35,275 bases of DNA, from positions 1 through 35,275 of the forward strand of contig NZ_JACSWB010000214.1 of assembly GCF_016888135.1 (NCBI RefSeq), in the 5' to 3' direction. Below, piece after piece: positions 1 through 35,275 of the stretch. Position numbers and translations under genes: made by a program. The DNA comes from Leptolyngbya sp. CCY15150 (GTDB lineage Bacteria > Cyanobacteriota > Cyanobacteriia > RECH01). Within the stretch, counting starts at the first letter, position 1; every line of letters begins with the position of its first letter. The notes beneath the pieces were generated by a model. The model ran no database searches. It worked only from the letters and a program-made list of their open reading frames with translations, and was not told where the DNA came from.

Positions 1-240
1 ACGCTCATACTGACCCAGACTGTTGTACGCAATCCCCAGATTGCCTAAAGTATTGCCTTCTCCCTGGCGATCGCCAATCTCCCGCGCGATCGTCAGGGAG
101 TGCTGATGGAATTCGATCGCACGCTCATACTGACCCAGACTGGTGTACGCATTTCCCAGACCGCATAAAGCACGGCCTTCTCCCGCGCGATCGCCAATTT
201 CTTGTGCAAGATCAAGAGTTTGCTGAAGATATTCAATCGA
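1..240 (-). repeat. 120-nt tandem repeat encoding TPR units
   Basis: Two 120-nt units (1-120 and 121-240) lie head to tail inside the TIR-NB-ARC-TPR gene. They begin with the same 22 bases and share many further blocks, including HIP1-like sites. 241-360 is a more diverged third unit. Each unit encodes one 40-residue TPR. The array continues beyond position 1. Confidence 0.8.
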
Positions 241-2367
241 TTCAGCATATTGTCCTAGTCCTTGAAATACAATACCCAAGTTGTTGAGAGCCTTCCACTG
301 TCCTTGTTTATCATCAATTTCTTTAGCCAGATTTAAGCTTTGCTGGTAGTGAGAAGTTGCTTGGGAGTACTGACTTAAAAAGTAATAGGCATTTCCAACC
401 CATTTCTGACAAGCCACTTCATCTAAAGGCTCTAGATGATCTATCAAGCGATGATGATAGATGAGCATTTCCTGATACTTGCCCCAGCTTTGAAGCTGGA
501 GTCCGATTTGCTGGTCTAACAAGATAGCTTTTGCAGCGTCCCAGTCTCTGACTTCGCAGTAGTGAACAAAAGCCTCTAGATAACCGCGCACGGTTTCCAG
601 GTTGGGTGCATCGGGGGCGGGTTTGTAGTCGTTCAGCCAGAGGTGGACAGCTTGGCGTTCGGCAGCTTCCCAGATTGGGGTGTCGGTTTTGAGCAGGGCA
701 TAGGCAATAGACCGGATCAGGTGGTGTTGGCGAATCAACAGTAGATTGTTAGGGCTGGAGACATATTCCACCAAGTGGCGATCTTGGAGGGTGTCAAAGG
801 CCGCTTGCGGGTCGCCATTGGGGAGCATGGCGTACCAGAACTTTTCAGGCACAGGGCGGCGGAAGACGGCGCTGGCGCAGAGCATTTGGCGGGCGGGTTC
901 GGGGAGGCGTTGGATCGATTGCTCTACCCGTTGACGAACGCGGCGGCGGAAGAGGCGGCTGCGGTCGAGCTTGTGAGCTGTCACGGCAGGGGCGGCGGTA
1001 AATTCTGCTTCGTAGTGCTGCCAATAGCGGGCGATGTTGCCCGAAAAAGGCGGCTGGCGGATTTCTTCGATGATCACCTGCAACACCAGGGGATGGCCAT
1101 CGTAGAAGGCCCCAATGCGTTGGAGGATGCCCCAGTCGGCATCGGTGGGGGTTAGCCCCAGGTTTTGGAACAGGGTGCGCTGTTCATCGGTGTTTAAGCC
1201 CTGGAGCGGTTCGCAGTGCCAAAACTGGGGGTAGCGCGAAGCTACGGTATCCAGGTCGCCGGGGATGTCTTGGCTGGTGAGCAACAGTTGGCTGGGGCAG
1301 TCGGTACCCGCCAGAAATTTTTGCAGCAGATCCAGCCAGAGGGGATCGCAAAACTCACTCCAGCCCTCCTGTTCATTGCCCCGCAGCAACCGCTCCAACG
1401 AGTCGATTTGCAAGCGGCAGGGGTGGCTCTGTAGCCGAGCGAGAATGTGCTCCACTAGGTTGGCTGGGTCTTGCTGATCCGCCAAGGTTGGTTCCTCGCC
1501 CAGTTCCCGCAAAAGCGCCGCGCCGCTGCTGGCAACGTCGGGGGTGAGGCTGAGATTATCTAAGCTGAAGCGGCAGTAGGGCAAGCTTTCATGCTGCTGC
1601 CCCATCTCCTGCTGCCTGAGCGAAGCCGAAGGCAGCAAGCTCCCCATCAGGGTCGCAACCACCCGTTCTCCCAAGGCCGTTTTGCCGATGCCCGTCATCC
1701 CTACCAGAGCAACGATGCGGCAATGGCCTTGAAAGCGGGCGGTGAGGTTGGCAGTTTCGGCGTCGCGGCCTGCAAAGGTCGCCGGGTTATAGGTGGAAAA
1801 GGGTGATGAGGCGCGCGGGGCTGGCAGGGCAGAAGCCGTAGGGTTTCCACTAGCGCTGGGATCTGGGACAACGGGAGATGCTTCAACCGTTGTCCCCAAG
1901 GGCTTTTTTGCTTGGAGCGACTCCACCGCTTTACGAATGCTCTGCACCACATTCAAAAAGGCTTCGTCTTGGTCATCCCACTTCGTAATGGGTTTGGCAT
2001 CCTTAGGCACCACTTGCAGCTTGCTGAAGGGGGTGCCCTGCCAGTCGCAGGGTTTGACGATGATGGGGATGACGCGGGCGGTGCCTTCGTTGTGGCGCTC
2101 TACGGCGCGCTGCATTTCTAGGTCATAGCAATAATCTGACGCCAAAAACCGGGGTGTAATCAGAAGCAAGATAAGTTCTGCGGCTTCAAGCTGTTGCTTG
2201 ATTTCTGAGTCCCATTCTGCTCCCGCTTCAATATCTCGGTCTTGCCATGCAGAGATTTTGCCCTGGCGTTTTAAGGTTGCCAGGTGTATGACCAGTTCAT
2301 CTTTGAAGTCCTCATCCCGGTGAGAGTAGGAGATGAATGCACTTAAGGGGGTAACCGCATTAGGCAT
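1..2367 (-). CDS. TIR-NB-ARC-TPR protein (NLR-like STAND protein), 3' end outside window
   Basis: The minus-strand frame is open from an ATG at 2367-2365 to the window edge (789 codons, no stop). An in-frame TAA lies just upstream, so this ATG is the only plausible start. Residues about 8-150 form a TIR domain: it opens with AFISYSHRDED and has the SDYCYDLEM segment, in which E84 is the candidate NADase glutamate. An NB-ARC/STAND NTPase follows, with Walker A GMTGIGKT at 223-230, and then a helical region. From about residue 640 there are 40-residue TPR-type repeats with NLG..Y..LGQYE cores that continue off the window. In known TIR-STAND proteins the repeats sense a ligand, the NTPase oligomerises, and TIR cleaves NAD or makes a nucleotide signal. 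A defence role is inferred from this architecture. The repeat number and true C-terminus cannot be seen. Confidence 0.88.
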   Translation of the reverse strand, partial: MPNAVTPLSAFISYSHRDEDFKDELVIHLATLKRQGKISAWQDRDIEAGAEWDSEIKQQLEAAELILLLITPRFLASDYCYDLEMQRAVERHNEGTARVIPIIVKPCDWQGTPFSKLQVVPKDAKPITKWDDQDEAFLNVVQSIRKAVESLQAKKPLGTTVEASPVVPDPSASGNPTASALPAPRASSPFSTYNPATFAGRDAETANLTARFQGHCRIVALVGMTGIGKTALGERVVATLMGSLLPSASLRQQEMGQQHESLPYCRFSLDNLSLTPDVASSGAALLRELGEEPTLADQQDPANLVEHILARLQSHPCRLQIDSLERLLRGNEQEGWSEFCDPLWLDLLQKFLAGTDCPSQLLLTSQDIPGDLDTVASRYPQFWHCEPLQGLNTDEQRTLFQNLGLTPTDADWGILQRIGAFYDGHPLVLQVIIEEIRQPPFSGNIARYWQHYEAEFTAAPAVTAHKLDRSRLFRRRVRQRVEQSIQRLPEPARQMLCASAVFRRPVPEKFWYAMLPNGDPQAAFDTLQDRHLVEYVSSPNNLLLIRQHHLIRSIAYALLKTDTPIWEAAERQAVHLWLNDYKPAPDAPNLETVRGYLEAFVHYCEVRDWDAAKAILLDQQIGLQLQSWGKYQEMLIYHHRLIDHLEPLDEVACQKWVGNAYYFLSQYSQATSHYQQSLNLAKEIDDKQGQWKALNNLGIVFQGLGQYAESIEYLQQTLDLAQEIGDRAGEGRALCGLGNAYTSLGQYERAIEFHQHSLTIAREIGDRQGEGNTLGNLGIAYNSLGQYER
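1610..1637. repeat. Palindromic element inside the NB-ARC coding region
   Basis: TGCTGCCT at 1610-1617 and AGGCAGCA at 1630-1637 are perfect inverted arms around a 12-nt loop. The core CCTGAGCGAAGCCGAAGG resembles a short palindromic repeat that I recall as dispersed in many cyanobacterial genomes. It is read through in frame as part of a Ser/Leu/Arg/Gln-rich stretch at about residues 244-253, just after the P-loop. Confidence 0.5.
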
Positions 2368-2494
2368 GATGAGCTTAATTTACGCAAGTGTCCCTATTTT
2401 GGCTCATTTTCCCACTCTACGGTAATGTCTCAAGGGACAGTGCCTGTTTTTGCACGGCAGTGCCTAAGAAGCACCATCCCTCACGTTTGAGCCT

Positions 2495-2520
2495 GCCGAA
2501 TGTTCATGTAGACGTTCGGC
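2495..2520. terminator. Hairpin between gltB and the TIR gene
   Basis: GCCGAATG at 2495-2502 pairs with CGTTCGGC at 2513-2520: eight pairs including one T-G wobble, with a 10-nt loop. It lies 13 nt past the gltB stop. No T-tract follows on the minus strand, so it may be an mRNA 3'-end structure rather than an intrinsic terminator. The rest of 2368-2532 holds nothing else I can support. Confidence 0.35.
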
Positions 2521-2532
2521 GATCGCTCCCAA

Positions 2533-5500
2533 CTACTGCACTGAGGTGAGTTCCTTCACGTCCGAGATGTTGGGATTGGTTTCTGGGCTATCGGCTTCCG
2601 AGGGCGGTACGACTTGCCAGAACTGAGGTAAGTAATGCTCCCAGTTGCTGAGGATCTTGGCAGCGCGATCGCTCCCTGTGTGATCAGCATAGGTTTGAAT
2701 CATCGACTTCAGTTGCTGCGCACCGGCGGCGGTGACCACCCGCTGCAGTTTGACGATCTCTGGGTTCACCTTCACGGGTACCGAGCCATCTTCATCGAGA
2801 ATGTAGGCTAAACCGCCGGTCATCCCAGCGCCGATGTTGCGCCCGATCGCGCCTAGAACCACAATCACACCGCCGGTCATATATTCGCAGCAGTGGTCAC
2901 CTGCGCCTTCAATGACCGCTTGTCCCTTGGAGTTACGCACGGCAAACCGTTCCCCTGCCTGCCCGTAGGCATAGAGGGTGCCGCCGGTTGCGCCATAGAG
3001 GCAGGTATTGCCGACGATCACGTTTTCAGATGGGTTGTAGGTGATGGCTGCCGATGGTTTAACGACAATTTCGCCACCATGCATGCCCTTACCGACATAG
3101 TCATTGGCTTCGCCCGTGAGTACGAGGGTCATCCCCGGCAGGTTGAAGGCTCCAAAGCTTTGCCCAGCACTGCCCTGGAAATTCAAGGTGATCTGTCCTT
3201 CAAACCCAGTATCGCCATAGCGCTTGGCGATCGCCCCGGCTAGGCGAGTGCCCACGGTGCGGTCTGTGTTGACCACTGGAGATTGATAGGTCGCGGTAGA
3301 CTGGTGGGCGATCGCGGCTTGGATTGCGGCGTCCGCCAGCAGTTGATCGTCTAACACGGGGCCATTACTATGAACATCTTCATGCTTCAGCCACTGCCGA
3401 TCTTCGCGGGTGTCAGGTAGATGGATCAGGCAGTCGAGGTTGAGGGCCTGGGTTTTGGTGGGCAGAGCGCCCGCCCGAGGCGTGAGCAGATCGGCCCGTC
3501 CGATGATCTCGGAGAGAGAGCGGTAGCCGAGGCGCGCTAGGAGCGATCGCACTTCTTCGGCCACAAAGTAGAAGAAATTGACCACATGCTCCGGTGTACC
3601 GGTGAACCGCTTGCGCAGCTTTTCTTGCTGGGTGGCGACGCCGACGGGGCAGTTGTTGGTGTGGCAGATGCGGGCCATGATGCAGCCTTCAGCAATCATC
3701 GAGACGGCCCCAAAGCCATATTCTTCAGCGCCCATCAGCGCCGCCATCAGCACATCCCAGCCGGTTTTCATCCCGCCATCGGCCCGCAGCAGGACGCGAT
3801 CGCGCAGTTGATTCTCCATCAACACGCGATGCACCTCTGTGACCCCCAGTTCCCAAGGCACTCCGGCATGTTTGATGGAACTCAAGGGCGAAGCACCGGT
3901 ACCGCCGTCATGCCCAGAGATTTGGATGACATCGGCATTGGCTTTGGCTACCCCAGCGGCGACGGTACCAATACCGACTTCCGCCACGAGTTTCACGGAG
4001 ACCTTCGCGTTCGGATTAATTTGATGGAGGTCAAAAATCAACTGTTCCAGGTCTTCAATGGAATAAATGTCGTGGTGGGGCGGTGGGGAAATCAAGGGTA
4101 CTCCAGCCTTGGAGCGCCGCAGCATGGCAATGTAAGGACTGACCTTTTTGCCAGGAAGCTGACCGCCTTCGCCGGGTTTAGCGCCTTGAGAGACTTTGAT
4201 TTCCAGTTGCTGAGCCGTGGCCAGATATTCCGGCGTCACCCCAAAGCGTCCAGAGGCAATCTGCTTGACGGCGGAGCTGGCCGTATCGCCATTGCGTAGG
4301 CCTTGAAGGTGGGGGAAGTGGCTGGAATGCCCGGTTTCATCCACGTCGTCAATGGTGCGATAGCGGGCCGGATCTTCTCCGCCTTCACCCGAATTGGACT
4401 TGCCGCCCAATCGGTTCATGGCGATCGCCAAGGTTTCATGGGCTTCACGGGACAAGGCACCCAAGGACATCGCCCCGGTGCAGAAGCGCTGCACAATGGT
4501 TTCTACGGAATCAACCTCATCGATGGAAATAGAAGGGCGATCGCTCTTCACGTCCAGCAGATCCCGTAGAGCCGTCAACGGCCGCTCTTCCAGATACTGT
4601 TGATAGACCTGGTAATGGTCATAGCTCTTTTCTCCCACTGCCTTATGCAGCGCCTTGGCCATTTCCGGACTATTCATGTGGTATTCACCACCGGGCTTGT
4701 AGTTAAAGAAGCCCATATTTTCCAGCTTTTTCTGGCTCAGCTCTGGGAACGCCCGCTGATGGAATGATGCAATCTCCTGGGCCAGGTCAGCCACGGTCAG
4801 ACCACCCAATCGCGACGCCGTACCCCGGAAGGCCAGATCCAGCAGCTCGCTGCCAATGCCAATGGCTTCAAAAATCTGCGCGCCGTGGTAGCTGGTCAAC
4901 AGCGAGATGCCCATCTTAGAGAGAATCTTCAGCAGTCCAGCTTCCAGCGCCTTGCGGTAATTGGCCTGAGCTTGGCCCATATCAATGGCGTCCAAGCGTC
5001 CCCGGGCCATCATGTTCTGGGTCTTGGAACTTGCCCACCATTGGCGAACGGTTTCCCAGGCCAGGTAAGGACAGACGGCGCTGGCTCCATAGCCCACCAA
5101 GCAGGCAAAGTGATGGGTGCTCCAGCATTGAGCTGTATCGACCACCAGGGATGCTTTCATGCGCAGCCCTTCGCGGATCAGATGGTGGTGGACTGCGCCG
5201 ACGGCGAGCATGGGCGGAATATAGCTGCAGTCTTCACTCAGGGAGCCCGGTTGTCCATCTCCAGAGAGGCGATCGCTCAAAATCAAAATCTCACAGCCGG
5301 CCTTCACCGCATCATCGGCTTGCTGACAGAGGGCTTCAACGGCCTGGGCCAAACCTTGGGGGCCGGTCAAGGTGTAGAGGGTAGAAAGATTGGCTGTTTT
5401 GAAGCCAGAGGTGCGCACTTGCTCCAGCTCAGTCTCGTTGAGCACCGGTGATTCCAGCTTCAGCAGGCGAGCATAGTCGGGCTTCGCTTCTAGAAGATTG

Positions 5501-7275
5501 CCCCGCGCCCCTAGTTGAATCGTCAGGGACATCACCAAACTTTCCCGCAGGGGATCGATGGCGGGGTTGGTAACCTGGGCAAACCGCTGCTTAAAGTAGT
5601 CGTAGAGCAGGCGTGGCTTGGTGGACAGCACCGCCAGGGGCACGTCATCGCCCATGCAGAAAGTAGGCTCCTTGGCTTGGGACGCCATGGCTTCCACGAT
5701 CATTTCCACGTCTTCGCTGGAGTAGCCAAAGGCCATCTGCTGGCGCAGCAAATCGCCATCCTCAAGCTGCAGACTATCTACGAAGGGTTGGGGTGTCAGA
5801 TCGACTCGATTCTCCTTGAGCCATTGTCCGTAGGGCTGGCTTTGGGCCACCCGTTGCTTAATATCCCAGTTTTTGAGGATTTCATGGTTCTGCAAATCGA
5901 CAGCGATCGCTTGCCCTGGGCCCAAACGTCCCTTTTCCACGATGTCCGCCTCTGGCAGATCCACCACGCCAGCTTCGGAAGACACCACAATATAGCCGTC
6001 GCGGGTGATGCTGTAGCGAGCCGGACGGAGACCGTTGCGATCCAGCGACGCACCCACCAGCTTGCCGTCGCTGAAGACAATCAAGGCTGGGCCATCCCAA
6101 GGTTCTTGGATGCCGCTGTAGTATTCGTAGTAGTCCACAATTTCGGGATGGTCGGCCAGGGCCGGCTGATCCTTATAGGCTTCCGGCACTAGGATCATCA
6201 CCGACTGCAGCGGCGTCCGTCCCGATCGCACCAGCAGCTCCATGACGTTATCCAAGGTGGCCGAGTCGCTGTTGTCGGCATTCACCACTGGCTTTAGGGC
6301 TTCTAGGCGATCGCCCCAAGCGGGATGGTGCAGGTCTGCTTCCCGGGCCATCATCCAGTTGATGTTGCCCAAGACCGTGTTGATTTCGCCGTTGTGCCCC
6401 AGCAGACGCATGGGGTGAGCTAGGGGCCACTTGGGCATGGTGTTGGTGCTAAAGCGCCGGTGGTAGATGGCAAAGGCGCTTTCATAGTCGGCATCCTGCA
6501 GGTCTAGGTAGAACTCGCCCAGCACCGCCGATCGCACCATGCCTTTGTAGACGATGGTGCGGGACGACAGGGAGCAGATGTAGAACTCACCTAGGGCACT
6601 GGCTAAGCTGGCATCTGTCGCTGGCGTGACCAAGGCAGCGATCGCCCGTTCGATCTGTTTGCGAACCAGGTAGAGCTGCCGCTCCAGTTCATCCCCCTGG
6701 GTGTCTGACGACTGCACGAGGAACTGTTCTACATGGGGACGGTTGGCTAAGGCTTGGGCTCCCAGCACCTCCGGCTTCACTGGCACCAAGCGCCAGTCCA
6801 AGAAGGTCAGCCCTGCATCGGCGACCACCTGCTCAATCACCGGCCGAGCCAGATCAATGGCCGCGGGCAGCCGTGGGAAAAAGGTCATGCCTACGCCCAC
6901 GCTGGCCAGATCGGCGGGACAGCTTAGGTCTGCGGTTTGCATCCAGCGCTGCAGCATCTTCCAAGGAAGGGCCGTCATCAGCCCAGCGCCATCGCCCGAG
7001 TCGCGATCGGCACTACAGCCACCCCGGTGTTCCATACAGGTCAATGCGCCCAGGGTCGTGGTGATCAGCCCATGGCTGGCTCGCCCCTGTTGATCGGCAA
7101 CAAAACCCACCCCGCAGGCGTCTCGTTCCTCCACGAGCCACCGCTGCCCGGCATAGCCAGGGTCGGGGGATAGATGCTGCTGACCGAATTGAACTCCACC
7201 TGTATTTCCCATGATCGATTGATCCATCTTGCTCGTTGATGATTGAACGTGTGGCTGATGCTTAGCGCAAAACAT
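2533..7275 (-). CDS. gltB: Glutamate synthase large subunit, ferredoxin-dependent type (Fd-GOGAT; also called GlsF/GltS)
   Basis: This 1580-residue protein has the full GOGAT architecture. Near the N-terminus ERDACGVGF places the class-II glutaminase nucleophile at Cys54, exposed after removal of a propeptide. A central domain follows, then the FMN/synthase barrel, the 3Fe-4S cysteines in [12 protein letters not shown] (about residue 1200), and the C-terminal beta-helix GXGXG-type domain. The synthase domain contains a [20 protein letters not shown] insertion (about residue 975). This insertion is typical of ferredoxin-dependent enzymes and absent from NADPH GltB. No small subunit gene adjoins it, which also fits Fd-GOGAT. 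It makes two glutamates from 2-oxoglutarate and glutamine with reduced ferredoxin. The start at 7275 has no clear Shine-Dalgarno sequence. The downstream ATGs at residues 17 and 22 are possible alternatives. Confidence 0.97.
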
Positions 7276-13877: not shown

Positions 13878-13948
13878 GGCTATACTGGTGAGGATTGCAA
13901 CAGTGCTGCTCTAGTGAAGCACATCTAGTTCAAGGTGTCCTGTTGGCT

Positions 13949-15649
13949 ATGGTTCGAGATGCCCTTGTGGTCGGCATTAATACGTATAAGCATATTAAGT
14001 CGCTTCAGGCTCCAGCCCATGACGCGGAGGCGATCGCTCATCTCTTGTCAGAGTACGGTGAGTTTCAAGTGAAGCGCTTGCCGGAAACTGTAGAACAGAA
14101 GCAGCTTCGGGTGGGAAAAAAGACCTCCGTATCGCAAGATGATCTTGAAGAGGCTCTAATTCGCTTGTTCAATCCTGAGGGGTCTAGCATTCCAGATACC
14201 GCACTATTCTACTTCTCAGGGCATGGAATGCGGGTGAGCAAGGGCGGTGTTTCAGAAGGGTTTTTAGTGACGAATGATGGGGATAAACGCTGCTGGGGTG
14301 TCAGTTTTAAATGGTTACAAGAACTGCTGGCTAAAAGTCCTGTTCAGCAGAAAGTTGTCATCCTTGATTGTTGCCATTCTGGAGAGTTCATAACGTCTCT
14401 AAATCTTCTCAGTTCGTCATCTTGGCAAGGACGCGATCGCTTCTTCATTGCGGCATCCCGTGAGTTTGAATCCTCTTGGGAAGACCTTGAATCTCCTTTA
14501 AGTACCGTAACCAAAATCTTGGTCGATGGACTGGATCCATGTCGCCATCAAAAGCCAATTTTTAGAAGCACAGATCTAGATCAATATCTGTACGATCATT
14601 TGGCTGGAGTGACCCAACGTCCCATTGTTGAACGTGTTGGAGAACCTATTATCCTTGTCCGTACGTCTTCCACGATGGTCAGTGAGTCGGGGACAGAAAA
14701 TTTTTTAGCCGGGGAACTGCCCCCTGTGTCATCAAAACAACCGATTCCAGGATCAGCATCTAATCTCGTACCTGTTCAGTCAGAGTGTGACACCACACAA
14801 GCACTTGAGCCTCCAAACTTATGTCATCTTGTCGTTACGCTCTTTTGGGAACAGCAGAGTAGCCGCAAAGTACGTGTTCATCCCAAACTTTACTATCGAG
14901 AAAGAAGTACTAACCAAGTCGTACAAAAACCATTGATGGAAGATAACCCGTCTGTTGGTCTAGACTATTTTCCGCAGTTTCTAGACGAATTGGTTAAGTT
15001 CACCGCTAGAGATTTATCAGGAGAATTCCCTGATCCATTACAACCTTGGCTATTATCGATCAAGTTGTTTGTTCCGATTGATTTATTAGGTGATCCGCTA
15101 CATACCTGGTGTGGTAGAGCAGCAGATATCTTTACCCATTATTCTATTGTTGTGGGTTGCTCTGATCGCTTCAATGCTGATCATTCCGGTGCGGCAGAGT
15201 TGCACAATCAACTTAAACTTGGCTGGCAACGGTTTCAAGCCAATATCCCCGATGGTGATGCTGCCTGCCTAACCCATCTCAACTGGCTGGATTCTGACCA
15301 GGCGCACATGAGTCGCTTGGAAGACCATTCAGGATTTCGCTGTTTTGGTGATTGGCTGGGCCCTGGAGAGCAGTATCTTGAGGGTTGGGAGAAGTTAGTG
15401 CGATCAGGAATTCCCATCGCGCTGTGGATGTGTGAGGGAGAGGGAGGAGCTGAGCGATCAGATCGCGATGAAACCTTTAATTGCTTAATTGCCCACTCTC
15501 GATTTCAATTTCTAGATGAACTTCCAAGAACTCGCGATCGTCAGCGGATCACCAGTCAAATGTGTGTCGGGGTATTCTACGAAGATCCAACCTATGTGCC
15601 AGATATCCCTCGGAAGAAAACCCAATTTTTTGCTTGGCCAAGTGCTTAG
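13949..15649 (+). CDS. Caspase-like (peptidase C14) effector with VMAP-C-like C-terminal domain
   Basis: A 566-residue product from the ATG at 13949, just before the beta-1 strand DALVVGINTY. A start at 13895 would add 18 unrelated residues. The caspase-fold dyad is intact: His92 in FYFSGHGM and Cys142 in VILDCCHSGEF. The region about 235-290 is a low-complexity linker. The C-terminal half (about 290-566) matches the VMAP-C pattern: LVVTLFWEQQ, a FTHYSIVVGCSDRF strand, a W-rich middle, GIPIALWMCEG, and a closing VFYEDPTYVPDIPRKK. In the described vWA-MoxR-VMAP systems this domain marks the third component, which carries the effector. Proteolysis that kills or stops growth of an infected cell is the inferred outcome. 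MoxR follows after 21 nt. Confidence 0.87.
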   Translation: MVRDALVVGINTYKHIKSLQAPAHDAEAIAHLLSEYGEFQVKRLPETVEQKQLRVGKKTSVSQDDLEEALIRLFNPEGSSIPDTALFYFSGHGMRVSKGGVSEGFLVTNDGDKRCWGVSFKWLQELLAKSPVQQKVVILDCCHSGEFITSLNLLSSSSWQGRDRFFIAASREFESSWEDLESPLSTVTKILVDGLDPCRHQKPIFRSTDLDQYLYDHLAGVTQRPIVERVGEPIILVRTSSTMVSESGTENFLAGELPPVSSKQPIPGSASNLVPVQSECDTTQALEPPNLCHLVVTLFWEQQSSRKVRVHPKLYYRERSTNQVVQKPLMEDNPSVGLDYFPQFLDELVKFTARDLSGEFPDPLQPWLLSIKLFVPIDLLGDPLHTWCGRAADIFTHYSIVVGCSDRFNADHSGAAELHNQLKLGWQRFQANIPDGDAACLTHLNWLDSDQAHMSRLEDHSGFRCFGDWLGPGEQYLEGWEKLVRSGIPIALWMCEGEGGAERSDRDETFNCLIAHSRFQFLDELPRTRDRQRITSQMCVGVFYEDPTYVPDIPRKKTQFFAWPSA

Positions 15650-15670
15650 ATCGTTTGCTGGAGACCTACC

Positions 15671-16735
15671 ATGACCACTAACCCATGGACATTATTTCAA
15701 GGCAATGGGCGATCGCTTCCCCTAACTCAGATGCCCGAAGCGCCTGCTTGGCGGAGTTTTATGACGGATGAGGACTTTGGAGCGGAGGAAGCCTCTAGTG
15801 AAAAGCGCTGGCAGAAAGTCCAAGACTTAGCTGAGACTGACATTCGCGGCAAGGAGAGGGGGGAAAGCTTTCGGCTGGATGATGGCGATACGGATGTTCT
15901 GAACGCGGTGAATGCAGCACTGCATCTGCGGCGACCGCTGTTGGTGACAGGCAAGCCGGGGTCGGGCAAAACATCGTTGGCCTATGCCGTAGCCCATGAG
16001 CTGAAGTTAGGCGTGGTTTTGTCTTGGGCGGTGAGTGCCCGATCGCTGGTTCGAGACGCCCTATATCAGTATGATGCGATCGCTCGTTTGCAAGATGCCC
16101 AACTCAAGCGGGAGCGGGCCATGGGTGACTATATCCGCCTTGGCCCTTTGGGTACGGCATTTCTACCCTCTCACCTTCCCCGAGTGTTGCTGATCGACGA
16201 GATTGATAAGTGCGATATTAACTTGCCCAATGACCTTCTGAATCTGTTTGAAGAAGGGCGGTATGAAATTCCTGAGCTGGTGCGTTGCAAGGATGAGCCA
16301 GGTTTAGATACCGTTAGCGTTCGGACAGCAGATGCGGATGTTTCGGCTGATGTTCGAGGGGGACGCGTGTTTTGTCGTGAATTTCCGTTTGTGGTGATGA
16401 CTAGCAATGGGGAGCGAGATTTTCCGCCTGCATTTTTGCGCCGCTGCCTGCGGTTACGGATGCCTGATCCTAGCCAGAGACCCAAGGCCCTAGAGCGCAT
16501 TGTGGAAGCACACCTCAAACGAGGACAGGATGAAGCCCGCTGGGGCGATATGCAGCAAGAAGTCACAGCGTTGGTTGAGCGATTTGTGGCTAAGGGCAAG
16601 GAGCAAACGGCGGATGTGGCGACGGATCAGCTCTTAAACGTGGTCTATTTGTTGACTCGCGAGGTGCAGCCGGGGCAGGATCAGCGAGAACAGCTTCAAG
16701 CCCTGCTGTTGAAAGGCTTGAGTGAGGAGGATTAG
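15671..16735 (+). CDS. MoxR-family AAA+ ATPase of the ternary system
   Basis: A 354-residue protein. GGAG lies 7 nt upstream of the ATG, a good ribosome binding site. A non-conserved N-terminus leads into Walker A GKPGSGKT (94-101), a long insertion typical of this subfamily, Walker B LLIDEIDK (Asp176, Glu177), a sensor-1-like VVMTSNGERDFPPAFLRRCLR, and an arginine-rich lid domain. MoxR ATPases act as chaperone-like remodelers paired with vWA proteins. Here the vWA gene follows immediately. With the upstream caspase/VMAP-C protein it forms the signature triad and would supply the NTP-dependent switch. Confidence 0.92.
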   Translation: MTTNPWTLFQGNGRSLPLTQMPEAPAWRSFMTDEDFGAEEASSEKRWQKVQDLAETDIRGKERGESFRLDDGDTDVLNAVNAALHLRRPLLVTGKPGSGKTSLAYAVAHELKLGVVLSWAVSARSLVRDALYQYDAIARLQDAQLKRERAMGDYIRLGPLGTAFLPSHLPRVLLIDEIDKCDINLPNDLLNLFEEGRYEIPELVRCKDEPGLDTVSVRTADADVSADVRGGRVFCREFPFVVMTSNGERDFPPAFLRRCLRLRMPDPSQRPKALERIVEAHLKRGQDEARWGDMQQEVTALVERFVAKGKEQTADVATDQLLNVVYLLTREVQPGQDQREQLQALLLKGLSEED

Positions 16736-16761
16736 TTATCGAACCCTGCCTAAGTCCGTCG

Positions 16762-19362
16762 TTGCAACAGTTGATCTCGACCCTGAACCAGCGTGGGCTG
16801 ACGGGGCGGGAAATTGCTGATGCCATTTGGCTGATGACGCGCATAGCGGGCGAGCTGGAAGAGCCAGAGCCAGAGTTGCAGTCTCTGGAACAGGATGATT
16901 GGGTAGATGACGGTGTAGAAGACAACGAACATCTAGAAGAACATCTAGCAGATGATGAATACCCAGAAGATGAATATCTAGAAGATGATGAAGGACTGGA
17001 AGAGCCTATCCCTCCGGAGCCTGAGGCGGAACTGGTACCAGAACCCATGGAACGTCCATCTTTGGCATTTCCGGATACCTACAGGCCGATTCCCGTTCCC
17101 GATGCACCAGCAATTGCTCACACGCTTCAGCTAGCGCGATCGCTCCGTCCCCTGGCTCGTCAGATAGCCGCTGGGTTGGCAACGGTGATCGATGAGGGAG
17201 CAACGGCGGAACGGATTGCAGAAGCAGGCGTATGGCAGCCGGTACTCCAGCCGGCATCGGAGCTATGGTTTGATGTTGCCTTGGTGTTTGATGCTAGTCT
17301 TTCCATGTGTTTATGGCAGCGTCTAGAGAAAGATTTGCGGCAATTTTTGTCGCGCTATGGTGTGTTCCGGGATGTGCGAGTGTGGTATGTGCAGCATGGT
17401 ACTAATCGGTTGGAGCTTACGTCACGCAATGGCATTTCTCACAGGCCCAAGGAGCTGTTGACGGGCGATCGCCGTCGAATGGTGGTTATGGTCAGTGATT
17501 GTGTGGCTCCGGCTTGGCATGATGGCAGGATGAAAAACTTGATGGCGATTTGGTCTGCTGCGTTGCCGACGGTGATCTGTCAGGTCTTTCCAGAACGGCT
17601 ATGGGCCAGGACGGCACTGACGCGATCGGTGGTGGTGGAGCTTCAGGCGAAGCAGGCTGGTTTACCAAGCGATCGCCTGGATCCTAAGGCGCGATCGTAT
17701 TGGGATCGGGGACGGGTGCAGGCGGCTGTTGGGGTAGGGATGATGCGATTGCCGGTGGTCACCCTTGAACCAGATTCCCTAGCCGACTTGGCTCGGGTGG
17801 TGGCAGGGCGGCAGGGGCAGGTGTTGGGGGTTGTGTGGGATGCGGAACCGGCCATGATATCGGGGGCTGAACCGTCAGCATCCGATGCAGCAGAACTCAC
17901 AGAGATCGTGGATGATTTTTTGCTGTTGGCACCTCCCACGGCGCGCCATTTGGCCACTCTGCTGGCTTCTGCACCGGTGATTACGCTGCCCATTGTGCGA
18001 TTGATCAGGCAAGCGATGCTGCCCCGTGCGAATGCGGTTCATGTGGCGGAAGTGCTCATGAGCGGTTTATTCCAGGTTAGTAGCGGTACTGTACCGACGG
18101 TGGAAAATGCGGAGCGTGTTGTTTATGAGGTGCTGGATGAAGCTGTCCGTCAGCGCTTGAGAGGTGGGTCTTTGGTGATGGATGCGATCAACGTAGTGGA
18201 GGCAGTATCGCAGTATGTGGCGAAGGGGTTAGGAAAGTCAGTATCAGAGTTTCGGGCCTTGTTGAGAATGCCAGGGACAGGGCAGAATCAACAGGAAACG
18301 GAGTTTTTAGCTGCCTTTGCCACGGTCACAGCGACAATTTTGCGGGGCTTGGGCAGTGAGTTTGAGGCGATGGCAGAGCGGTTGCTGGCACCAGAGCCAT
18401 CAGACCCCGTCTCAGATAATGAGCAAGAGTTCCCAGGCTTTCCGCCTCTTGAAGACTTCAGCTTTGATGTTGCGACTGTGATTGAGGATGTAGAAGAACC
18501 ACCCTCTTTTCCAAATATCCCAACCCTTCAACGTTTGTATAGCCACGCTGCTACTCTACAGCGGGTGGGTCGGAGATGGGAGATCACCTATCAACTTGCT
18601 TCAGGCTGGCACTATGTCGAACAGTTACCGAAAAAAATATCCATAGAGATGGTGGCGATTCCCAGTGGACGATTTCTCATGGGATCGCCTGAGGGCGAAG
18701 GCGAGGATAGAGAACGCCCGCAGCATGAAGTTACTGTTCCTCCCTTCTTCATGGGTCGCTATCCCATCACCCAGGCTCAGTGGTGGGCCGTGGCAGTGAT
18801 GCCCAAGGTAAAGCAAGATCTAGAGACAGATCCCTCCCGTTTCAAAGGTAATACGCGTCCGGTGGAGCGTGTGACTTGGCAGGATGCCATAGAGTTTTGT
18901 GCTCGTCTCTCTGTTCATACGGGGCGATCCTATAGCCTGCCTAGTGAAGCGGAGTGGGAATATGCCTGTCGAGCTGGAACCACTACCCCGTTTCATTTTG
19001 GTGAAACCATCAGCCCTAAGGTGGCTAACTATGACGGCACTCGGATTTATGGTGATGGCCCTAAGGGAGAGTATCGAAAAGAAACAACTCCGGTGGGGCA
19101 GTTCGAAGTGGCCAACGCCTTTGGCCTGTGCGACATGCATGGAAATGTGTGGGAATGGTGTTTAGATTCCTGGCATGGAAATTATGAGGGAGCGCCGACG
19201 GATGGAAGCGCCTGGGATGCAGATGGTGCAAGGGATAGACGCGTTAGACGTGGCGGGTCTTGGGGCATCAATCCTAGGTTTTGCCGGTCTGCGTACTGCA
19301 ACTATGACATCCCCGTGGTTCGCTTCAACGACTTCGGTTTTCGTGTGGTCTGCCACGTCTAA
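16762..19362 (+). CDS. SAV_2336-like N-domain / vWA / FGE-sulfatase-type lectin fusion with variable C-terminus
   Basis: An 866-residue product if the TTG at 16762 is used. GGAGG at 16726-16730 is spaced better for an in-frame ATC at 16738. The order is: a short helical segment (GLTGREIADAIWLM), a very acidic hinge (about 30-95, E/D repeats), a SAV_2336-like helical region, a vWA domain with an intact MIDAS start DASLS (Asp177, Ser179, Ser181), a helical middle (about 370-560), and an FGE-sulfatase/C-type-lectin domain from about 628 (EMVAIPSGRFLMGSP, GNVWEW, RGGSW). In human FGE the copper cysteine pair follows GGSY. Here the first cysteine is replaced (Ile), so catalysis of formylglycine is unlikely and ligand binding more likely. 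It is the presumed sensor/adaptor of the caspase-MoxR system. Confidence 0.88.
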   Translation: MQQLISTLNQRGLTGREIADAIWLMTRIAGELEEPEPELQSLEQDDWVDDGVEDNEHLEEHLADDEYPEDEYLEDDEGLEEPIPPEPEAELVPEPMERPSLAFPDTYRPIPVPDAPAIAHTLQLARSLRPLARQIAAGLATVIDEGATAERIAEAGVWQPVLQPASELWFDVALVFDASLSMCLWQRLEKDLRQFLSRYGVFRDVRVWYVQHGTNRLELTSRNGISHRPKELLTGDRRRMVVMVSDCVAPAWHDGRMKNLMAIWSAALPTVICQVFPERLWARTALTRSVVVELQAKQAGLPSDRLDPKARSYWDRGRVQAAVGVGMMRLPVVTLEPDSLADLARVVAGRQGQVLGVVWDAEPAMISGAEPSASDAAELTEIVDDFLLLAPPTARHLATLLASAPVITLPIVRLIRQAMLPRANAVHVAEVLMSGLFQVSSGTVPTVENAERVVYEVLDEAVRQRLRGGSLVMDAINVVEAVSQYVAKGLGKSVSEFRALLRMPGTGQNQQETEFLAAFATVTATILRGLGSEFEAMAERLLAPEPSDPVSDNEQEFPGFPPLEDFSFDVATVIEDVEEPPSFPNIPTLQRLYSHAATLQRVGRRWEITYQLASGWHYVEQLPKKISIEMVAIPSGRFLMGSPEGEGEDRERPQHEVTVPPFFMGRYPITQAQWWAVAVMPKVKQDLETDPSRFKGNTRPVERVTWQDAIEFCARLSVHTGRSYSLPSEAEWEYACRAGTTTPFHFGETISPKVANYDGTRIYGDGPKGEYRKETTPVGQFEVANAFGLCDMHGNVWEWCLDSWHGNYEGAPTDGSAWDADGARDRRVRRGGSWGINPRFCRSAYCNYDIPVVRFNDFGFRVVCHV
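19249..19353 (+). other. Candidate DGR variable region 1 (C-terminus of the vWA-FGE protein)
   Basis: This covers residues 830-864, from RGGSW to GFRVVC. Nearly all codons at the non-conserved positions end in C or T (for example GGC, ATC, AAT, TTT, TAC, TAT, GAC). That is the pattern left when adenines of AAC/AAT codons in a template repeat are randomised at positions 1 and 2. The fixed residues W, P, C-R-S-A, P and GFR are interleaved as in known FGE-type DGR targets. Confidence 0.65.
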
Positions 19363-19463
19363 GACACTCTCTCGCAGTGGGAGGAGCTTGGTAGGGCAAC
19401 CATCGCGAACCCCACCTATAACCTCGACTTCTACGGTGTTAATCATATTCCTTTGCTTCCCCC

Positions 19464-20324
19464 ATGACCCAATTCGCCATTCATCAACAAACCAAAATCA
19501 ATCGTCGGTTCTTTGAAGATCTCGGGAACGATATTCGCCTAGAAATGGTTCTCATCCCCAGCGGCACCTTCCTCATGGGATCCCCAGACGATGAACTGGA
19601 ACGGAGAGACAGTGAGGGGCCCCAACATCTTGTTACCATGCCGACCTTTTTCATGGGCCGCTATCCCATTACTCAAGAGCAGTGGCGGGCCGTGGCAGTG
19701 ATGTCTAGAGTAGAGCGTGATCTAGATCCGGCTCCTTCAGAGTTCAAGGGTGATATGCATCCGGTTGAACGGGTGTCTTGGGAGGATGCGATGGAGTTTT
19801 GCGCTCGGCTTTCTGCCTTCACAGGGCGATCCTATAGCCTGCCCAGTGAAGCGGAGTGGGAATATGCCTGTCGAGCTGGAACCACAACTCCGTTCCACTT
19901 TGGTGAAACAATAAGCCCTAAAGTAGCGAATTATGACGGCAATTACCTCTATGCCAGGAACCCTGAAGTAGTCCGCTATGACGGAAGCTCTACCTATGGC
20001 GACGCTTCCCCAAAAACATATCGCAAAAAAACAACGCTGGTAGGATATTTTGGGGTGTCTAATGCCTTTGGTCTGTGTGATATGCACGGAAATGTGTGCG
20101 AATGGTGTTTGGATCCTTGGCACGATAACTACGAAGGCGCGCCAATGGATGGAAGTGTCTGGAATTCTGATGAGCAGAAAGACATACGCGTTTTACGTGG
20201 TGGATCTTGGCTCAACAAACCGAGGAGTTGTCGATCTGCAAACCGTGACTATGTCAACCCTGCGTCCCACTACGACTATAATGTCGGGTTTCGGATTGTC
20301 TGTCACATCCGAGGCACTCCCTAG
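19464..20324 (+). CDS. Stand-alone FGE-sulfatase/C-type-lectin domain protein, second diversified paralog
   Basis: A 286-residue protein made almost only of an FGE-like domain (EMVLIPSGTFLMGSP, MGRYPITQEQWRAV, SLPSEAEWEYACRAGTTTPF, GLCDMHGNV). It is closely related to the C-terminus of the preceding gene, with near-identical DNA around 18920-19030 versus 19826-19932, so it arose by tandem duplication. GNVWEW has become GNVCEW. The first FGE copper cysteine is absent (Asn), so enzyme activity is doubtful. It starts 101 nt after the vWA-FGE stop without a clear ribosome binding site. It probably provides a soluble second ligand-binding specificity for the system; that is inference. Confidence 0.85.
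   Translation: MTQFAIHQQTKINRRFFEDLGNDIRLEMVLIPSGTFLMGSPDDELERRDSEGPQHLVTMPTFFMGRYPITQEQWRAVAVMSRVERDLDPAPSEFKGDMHPVERVSWEDAMEFCARLSAFTGRSYSLPSEAEWEYACRAGTTTPFHFGETISPKVANYDGNYLYARNPEVVRYDGSSTYGDASPKTYRKKTTLVGYFGVSNAFGLCDMHGNVCEWCLDPWHDNYEGAPMDGSVWNSDEQKDIRVLRGGSWLNKPRSCRSANRDYVNPASHYDYNVGFRIVCHIRGTP
20196..20303 (+). other. Candidate DGR variable region 2 (C-terminus of the second FGE protein)
   Basis: This covers residues 245-280, from RGGSW to GFRIVC, and aligns codon for codon with 19249-19353 (one extra codon here). Fixed positions differ only in third bases. The variable positions differ mainly in first and second bases and almost all end in C or T. The pair GTG/GCG fits one ancestral GAG with its adenine changed. 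Confidence 0.65.
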
Positions 20325-34060: not shown

Positions 34061-35222
34061 TTATTCATGTTTAGTGTCTTTTGCAGATCTTTGTTTCCTA
34101 ATTTGATCCCACCGAAATTCTCTCCAGACCACATCCCAATCAGAAGTTTTTTCGTGGCATAAAATTTTTGGAAAAAAGTCTATACATGTATGATCATAAT
34201 AACTTTTTTCGTATATGTTTCGGTTGCTTAGGTAGTGTTTCAATGCTAGTGGGAATATAAAACTACTTAAAAGCAAATGCTCCTTCAAAGTCCATATGGA
34301 TGCATAGGACTCATGACTGTGCCCGTGAGCTAGGCTTCCTCTTTTTATGACGATATCTCTCATCCAAACCTCTTGTATGGATGTATCTTTTTGAAGCTTC
34401 TGCTTTTTATCTTGTTGCCGTTGTTGCCGTTGTTGCCATTGTTGCCCCCTATAACAATCAATGATGTCCATATCAGATTGCGTGCCGAGTAATTGAGTGA
34501 ACCTATTAGCTAAATCTTCGTCTGCGCTGCCCTTAGATCTCTTTTGGCTATTGGATTTTAGCAATCGCTCAAAGGCGCTCACTGAGAAGACAAGTTCTAT
34601 TGCCTCAGATGTATATGGGCCATCCGAGTTGGATAAATTAAAACTTATTATCCCCTGAAAAATACTTTCCCACTTATTTAATCGAGATTGAGCAGAAATT
34701 AAAGAATGCAAGAAGTCCTCGTTCAATCTTGTCCTTAAATGACGTACATGGCTAGGCATTACTTCTCGAAATTTATGTTTTGATATGATGTTCTCATTGC
34801 AACCATCTCTTCGTCTAGTGATTGTTTTATAAGCGACCGAGTTACTAAATCTTTTTAGCTGAAAGTTGTCTCTGTTGCAATAATCCTGGCTACCCGAGAA
34901 AAATGTTCTACCACTCAATCCACAAAAAGTTATTAACTCTATCCATAAAGCAAGCTTTTCCTCTAATTTTTTACTGATCTTATCAATCAATCTGGGCATT
35001 GATTGATAAGATCGTGATGCTCTGGACATTTCTGGTGTCACTTTCATAAAAATGATTTAGGTAGTCTTCCAGTGCAGATACGGTTTCCTGATCATATTCT
35101 GTCGGTCTACTTCCTTTGTCGAAAGGTAGCAGGCTGAAATCATCTAAATGAACAGCTTCAGAAATCCTGAACCAAGGGAAAAAAACTAGGGCGGCAAAAC
35201 TAGCTGGAGAAAGAGGAGACAA
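34061..35222 (-). pseudogene. HEPN-like (Apea-type) protein gene split by a frameshift
   Basis: Two overlapping minus-strand frames join into one protein. The upstream part starts at a TTG (35222; an in-frame TAG lies four codons before it) and runs LVFFPWFRISEAVHLDDFSLLPF to SITILSINAQID, then TGA (34985-34983). The downstream frame continues naturally as DKISKKLEEKLALWIELITFC to a stop at 34063-34061. Removing one TGAT from ATTGATTGATAAG restores one frame. The downstream part has R-G-S-L-A-H (in VIKRGSLAHGHSHES), which fits the HEPN Rx4-6H RNase motif. Family assignment is tentative. The region is AT-rich, lacks HIP1 sites and has a QQRQQRQQ tract, suggesting acquisition. An ATG at 35047 could still express the last 328 residues. 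Confidence 0.6.
34976..35013. repeat. Perfect 16-bp inverted repeat at the frameshift site
   Basis: GATCTTATCAATCAAT (34976-34991), loop CTGGGC, and ATTGATTGATAAGATC (34998-35013). The 4-nt unit that breaks the HEPN-like reading frame is part of one arm, so the arms match perfectly only because of that insertion. Confidence 0.85.
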
Positions 35223-35275
35223 TTGGCTAGGCTAGGCACAGAGGCGAGAACAGGGTGAGGCAATCAAGATGGTCA

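Follow-up and report, generated by a model that had tools for sequence, protein, structure and literature searches.

At a fixed site beside gltB, two sister species of Leptolyngbya carry genes that share one TIR–NB-ARC chassis and quite probably bear recognition cassettes of different ancestry, one of which is related to the sensor of a receptor armed with a trypsin. On either side of a conserved NB-ARC switch, sensor and effector would have been swapped, as would be expected if changing invaders exert selection on an NLR repertoire. The TIR–NB-ARC–TPR architecture is already known, as it is in print for bacteria (accessible part of PMC9806590); what is new here is a pair of natural alleles in which two sensors are mounted on one chassis. 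These matched alleles combine a TIR and NB-ARC core about 96% identical in DNA, different sensors and the same locus, and are completed by an empty site in a third species. The recognition part of bacterial NLRs is usually learned protein by protein, and the pair makes it testable whether the TPR cassette alone sets specificity. A search of titles and abstract openings, with subscription journals mostly outside its scope, found no report of sensor exchange between orthologous bacterial TIR-NB-ARC-TPR genes.

The window (the whole stretch of DNA that was analysed) is contig C214 of Leptolyngbya sp. CCY15150 in full, 35,275 bases. This genome is called G000 below; G001 and G002 belong to the same genus, G002 being the sister species. 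The relevant features are:

1..2367 of the window, continued at L009 3553..2843 (contig C215), both minus strand: TIR–NB-ARC–TPR gene, 789 of its 1,025 codons in the window; from the 89-base overlap and G001 synteny
1..429 (residues 647-789), minus strand: visible TPR units; TPR_12 4.4e-36 and helix pairs in the model
298..555 (residues 605-690), minus strand: sensor base ('cap'); stretch differing from the G002 orthologue
568..1782 (residues 196-600), minus strand: NB-ARC-type STAND switch, with Walker A at 1678-1701 and the MHD-like His at 724-726; from motifs, profile and relatives
1903..2355 (residues 5-155), minus strand: TIR effector domain, with Glu84 at 2116-2118; from TIR_2, the conserved Glu84 and the predicted fold
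2368..2532, minus strand: spacer separating the TIR gene from gltB; it aligns with G002, and in G001 unrelated sequence takes its place
2533..7275, minus strand: gltB, glutamate synthase large subunit, the housekeeping neighbour; PRK11750 1746.8 bits
13895..20324, plus strand: cluster of caspase–VMAP, AAA, SAV_2336 N-terminal-domain–FGE and FGE genes, separate from the system of the TIR gene

In the window, the TIR gene is a minus-strand open frame that begins with an ATG at 2367 and leaves at base 1 without a stop, so that 789 residues are visible; it is cut by the contig end and not by the window alone. Contig C215 (3,642 bases) overlaps the end of C214 by exactly 89 bases, and the frame continues in-frame through it to a stop, giving 1,025 residues. 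This join is supported by G001, where gltB is directly followed by the DUF4112 and receiver–histidine kinase genes that are found on C215. Extension to the left, which the earlier note had proposed for obtaining the full TPR number, therefore completes the protein, with about nine 40-residue units as assembled. As the longest exact repeat of the array is 58 bases, the 89-base overlap suggests an assembly branch, with perhaps further collapsed units, and the TIR genes of G000 and G002 both hit contig ends inside their repeats. The other end of the window (35179-35275) is a multi-copy element: exact copies of 86-96 bases occur at eight further places in the genome. At least four of these recurrences sit at the first base of a contig, from which it appears that contigs of the G000 assembly break at shared stretches of about 86-96 bases. 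Near this end, window 34061-35047 encodes a 328-residue protein without Pfam or PADLOC match at 0.001.

The immediate neighbours of the TIR gene are gltB and, beyond small frames, DUF4112; the earlier note had placed it beside a housekeeping gene, and gltB does indeed lie 165 bases away. Homology between G000 and G001 stops 4 bases beyond the gltB stop and again at the DUF4112 stop, and the interval between these ends measures 3,907 bases in G000 versus 411 in G001, where the site is empty. Judging from these comparisons, the gltB–DUF4112 locus is an optional site, occupied in two of the three genomes of the genus (G000 and G002). The stretch from the TIR gene to DUF4112 contains two small minus-strand frames (L009 2333-2539 and 2701-2853), of which the second overlaps the TIR stop. 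On the same contig, L009 95-171 is a short dispersed repeat into which the majority of the listed C215 matches in G002 and G001 fall.

The TIR domain is recognized by TIR_2 at residues 11-120 (5.8e-17, 62.8 bits against a cut-off of 28). It was folded alone because TPRs took up the VIA-align list obtained with the whole model, and the resulting model (pLDDT 83.5) has plant TIRs as its eleven nearest chains (RPV1, Z 16.2, rmsd 2.2, 139 aligned; RUN1, 16.1; RPP1, 14.8); Z is at most 13.7 for SPARTA, 12.4 for SARM1 and 11.9 for Cat1. The Glu84 pointed out by the earlier note is present and invariant in the 15 aligned TIRs (15/15). It falls in the predicted helix 78-94 and is found in 36 of the 38 matches listed; the two exceptions are weak matches that are gapped or truncated at that point, and some genes are represented in the list by several pieces. 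Alignments show one extra residue just ahead of it, hence an offset by one relative to Cat1 and a plant TIR; Glu84 is the likely active-site position, through which the domain would act as an NADase. A catalytically dead TIR that serves as an adaptor would agree with the extra residue, but the invariance of Glu84, its presence in nearly all listed matches and its place within the helix make this very unlikely.

The central part of the protein was labelled NB-ARC by the earlier note, a name that this protein taken alone does not reach in Pfam: NB-ARC scores 14.3 bits, under the cut-off of 23.5, nSTAND1 barely passes its own (27.3 versus 27.1), AAA_16 is weak as well and NACHT reaches 9.2 bits against a cut-off of 26.7. 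The label holds through the relatives and the family profile. Among ten relatives scanned, five are above the Pfam NB-ARC cut-off (L102, L053, L058, L030 and L101), four are under it and one, L028, has no NB-ARC match up to 0.01. In an alignment of 16 sequences, the Walker A G/GKT, GH and MHD-like His columns are invariant, and the Pro of GHPL occurs in at least 90%. In a search with the profile of the 16 STAND regions, Roq1 is the best match (3.3e-7), its alignment starting ahead of Walker A and reaching the GLPL motif. Other plant NLRs follow, and from 4.7e-5 onward Clp-type ATPases are interspersed among the matches. The STAND is called NB-ARC type because half of the relatives pass the cut-off and the family profile best matches Roq1.

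The whole-protein model (68.7 pLDDT, pTM 0.43) is poor in the STAND part, where pLDDT ranges from 32 to 84 by blocks of ten. Its best Foldseek match is PH0952 (6mfv), an archaeal STAND protein with a TPR sensor (1.6e-10), but with 15% identity, a TM-score of 0.31 by query length and an rmsd of 12.0 the domain arrangement is not closely matched; RPP1, CED-4 and the apoptosome appear lower down among many TPR proteins. The plant-NLR-like architecture claimed at the outset is thus borne out by the TIR model, by the NB-ARC profile and by a whole-model search that reaches RPP1.

In G002, the TIR gene stands at the same place beside gltB, as a 774-residue frame that is also present in RECH01000147.1 (metagenome bin Leptolyngbya sp. 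DLM2.Bin15). Its residues are identical to those of G000 at 150/155 positions in the TIR and 220/225 in the NB-ARC core (96.6 and 96.1% in DNA), then at 109/118 over residues 421-538 and 58/74 over residues 539-612 (DNA 89.5% then 78.4%), and the G002 protein has an extra insertion ahead of the MHD-like motif. Over residues 613-690, in the cap, there is no usable alignment. The trees of the two parts are discordant. The NB-ARC tree places G000 with G002 (88/95, not starred). The cap tree, made of seven caps with one long-branched row (G041) and without the PCC 6406 cap, which is cut short, places G000 with G072 (97/96, starred) and does not resolve the placement of G002. In AU tests, for which the groups were named after similarities already seen, G000+G072 is rejected for the NB-ARC (p 8.9e-6) and G000+G002 is rejected marginally for the cap (p 0.04).

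A search of 96 genomes with the cap found G072 (4.0e-15) and, just under 1e-4, G024 and G052. At E <= 1e-4, there was no match in G001, G002 or G003; a cap donor within the genus was also sought in G000, which has no match at this threshold besides the cap itself. The G072 protein, which comes from another genus, has a trypsin in place of the TIR. These data suggest that the two sister species have sensor bases of different ancestry. We interpret the difference as one of them having had its sensor cassette replaced, the AU test for the cap being marginal and made on seven sequences. Ordinary fast divergence or an assembly artefact is an unlikely source of the difference. It would fit the fact that G002 is a metagenome bin, that both contigs end in the TPR array, with the cap 297 bases from the end of C214 and about 190 from that of C377 (G002), and that identity is already dropping over residues 421-612; the marginal AU result and the unsettled place of G002 in the cap tree lean the same way. 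However, the cap lies inside both contigs and outside the 89-base overlap, the nearest cap in the 96 genomes is that of G072 although its NB-ARC is only 44% identical to that of G000, and the path between G000 and G002 amounts to about 2.2 changes per column in the cap tree versus 0.08 in the NB-ARC tree, all of which argues for replacement of the cassette.

Beyond the cap, the TPR array, whose helix pairs have a pLDDT above 90 in the model, runs on in C215. Repetition in its visible part is far beyond chance: the last pair of 120-base units that can be seen agrees at 91/120 positions (76%) and the preceding pair at 59/120, against 29% for a STAND-region control at the same offset. The earlier note had called these last units nearly identical, which overstates what the window holds. 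In the completed array, unit 730 is 90% identical to unit 770 and 92% to unit 810, including identical stretches of 57 and 58 bases, and this level of identity and these stretches lie partly or wholly outside the window, in C215. Unit 850 matches units 730, 770 and 810 at 78-82%, and unit 690 and the units from 890 on match at no more than 62%; at protein level, identity among the four most similar units is 60-82%. Mosaic identity between units goes weakly beyond shuffling (lowest p 0.019 of nine pairs, uncorrected). Between the species, where the comparison extends to no more than about one and a half units on the G002 side, the best TPR stretch has 90% identity over 97 bases and the best unit match 88% over a partial unit of G002; one J069 unit matches that partial unit at 91%. 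The identity between G000 and G002 TPRs is below the roughly 96% of the TIR–NB-ARC core and hardly below that inside the G000 array, a pattern that would fit turnover since the split or arrival of the array with a new sensor. The idea of a recently expanding sensing array stands as far as a changing sensor is concerned, the stronger signal being the other sensor base in the sister species. Expansion as such goes further than these data: both contigs end in TPRs, that of G002 within its 774-residue frame, so that copy numbers are not comparable between complete orthologous arrays.

On the effector side, the TIR+STAND query matched in some part in 39 of the 96 genomes, its own included (E <= 1e-10). 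A STAND match above 60 bits was obtained for 21 distinct proteins of the loci examined, several of them cut by contig or locus ends, and four of these (G000, G002, L102 and L051) also have a TIR. In the ten relatives scanned, Trypsin_2 was found in two, TIR in two and an HTH just above its cut-off in one. Leptolyngbya sp. PCC 6406 has a trypsin instead of a TIR on a STAND that is 77% identical to that of G000. In this gene (L100 5314-7485 and beyond), the frame stops soon after the cap and is followed by a frame that we take to be transposase-like; its sensor has probably been lost. TIRs of the same lineage are linked to CHAT, GUN4, AAA_35, kinase–FGE, SAVED and LRR–Roc–COR. CHAT–TIR proteins, whose TIR is 74-75% identical to that of the window, occur in all three genomes of the genus (L016 793-1953; L057 4510-5703; L056 1682-2779), with an internal TAG reported in the G002 and G001 matches, and a TIR–GUN4 fusion is found in the own genome (L054 3671-4897).

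The position of the gene and its TPRs could also be those of a STAND-type signalling regulator, metabolic or developmental and possibly acting with gltB, whose TIR would serve as a scaffold and would not be that of an immune NADase. The TIR gene lies downstream of gltB on the same strand with no terminator-like site at 2300-2700, AfsR, a STAND-TPR regulator, is among the weaker matches to the TPR part, and the spacing of Glu84 is non-canonical. Yet gltB does not need the TIR gene, as G001 keeps gltB without a TIR gene at the site, and a promoter-like site is located just upstream of the TIR gene (2433-2406; 1 found versus 0.3 expected). No HTH family is listed for the window protein up to E 10. 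Partners of the TIR relatives are SAVED, CHAT, kinase-FGE and Roc-COR modules, and elsewhere the same switch bears a trypsin, as in conflict systems, so that a regulator appears quite improbable.

The reading that we consider reasonably likely is that of a single-protein NLR-type receptor, for which the following model can be drawn. In the absence of an invader, the TPR superhelix and the cap would keep the NB-ARC switch off. Recognition of an invader protein by this sensor would release the switch, leading to nucleotide exchange and oligomerisation of the NB-ARC and bringing the TIR domains together. The assembled TIRs would then cleave NAD+ via Glu84, and the infected cell would halt growth or die, or a signal of the cADPR type would be made. 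Such a defence role is proposed from sequence and predicted structure.

Plant TNL resistosomes (Roq1, RPP1) have an LRR-based recognition part. The G000 protein resembles them in its NB-ARC, by the profile match to Roq1, and in its TIR, by the model match to RPP1, and is unlike them in having TPRs. Compared with bacterial systems, the TIR matches the Thoeris family PDLC00420 ThsB1|ThsB of PADLOC (1.4e-59, residues 11-184), although the protein is not classed with Thoeris. It is a receptor that stands singly next to a housekeeping gene. The seven PADLOC matches obtained up to 0.01 with the visible 789 residues include no Avs-named family (AVAST), and the protein may work like an Avs at most by analogy. 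Bacterial TIR-NB-TPR proteins are described as resembling plant TNPs (TIR-NBARC-TPR) in the nucleotide-binding domain and not in the TIR or TPR (accessible part of PMC9806590); the G000 protein has the same three-part order, NB-ARC motifs and TPRs in place of LRRs. In the same way, the conflict proteins of Kaur et al. 2020 include an AP-ATPase with TIR and TPR, with parts that vary between close relatives (accessible part of PMC7159879). The TIR–AP-ATPase genes described there belong to VMAP clusters, in which they lie downstream of FxSxx peptide systems, whereas the G000 gene stands beside gltB. In fungal NLRs, the TPR, ANK or WD recognition repeats are highly alike within a gene, possibly through concerted evolution (threshold >85% over >=100 residues; accessible part of PMC4986451), and the G000 repeats are likewise much alike in one gene but stay under that threshold, with the 60-82% given above for their most similar units.

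The caspase–VMAP cluster of the window encodes a first protein with VMAP-C (2.5e-13) and a caspase domain, a second with AAA and a third with the SAV_2336 N-terminal domain (5.5e-107) and FGE. The earlier note had supposed that the TIR gene and this system may be independent modules, with which the comparison agrees. The caspase–VMAP protein, the only one of the cluster that was searched, has no match at E <= 1e-10 in any of three relatives (G001, G002 and G003), and since G002 keeps the TIR gene without it, the two modules need not occur together. A single pathway in which the TIR product activates the caspase would resemble the link from TIR to caspase known in a Thoeris type, and both genes are on the same contig, 11.5 kb apart; but they are in opposite orientation with other genes between them, and this, with the distribution just given, makes one pathway hardly probable at all. 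There is a resemblance between the cluster and the ternary vWA-MoxR-VMAP systems described by Kaur et al. (accessible part of PMC7159879), and no vWA model reached 1e-3 within 13895-20324. Two of its proteins (window 16762-20324) have an FGE domain, the kind of protein described as a target of diversity-generating retroelements (accessible parts of PMC7159879 and PMC10907252). Diversification of these proteins by such an element was considered and set aside, the sole RVT_1 match in the own genome (E <= 0.001) being an AbiA-like protein. This reverse transcriptase protein, at G000:C143:28834-30834 (L117 2835-4835, plus strand), matches AbiA of PADLOC at 4.8e-83.
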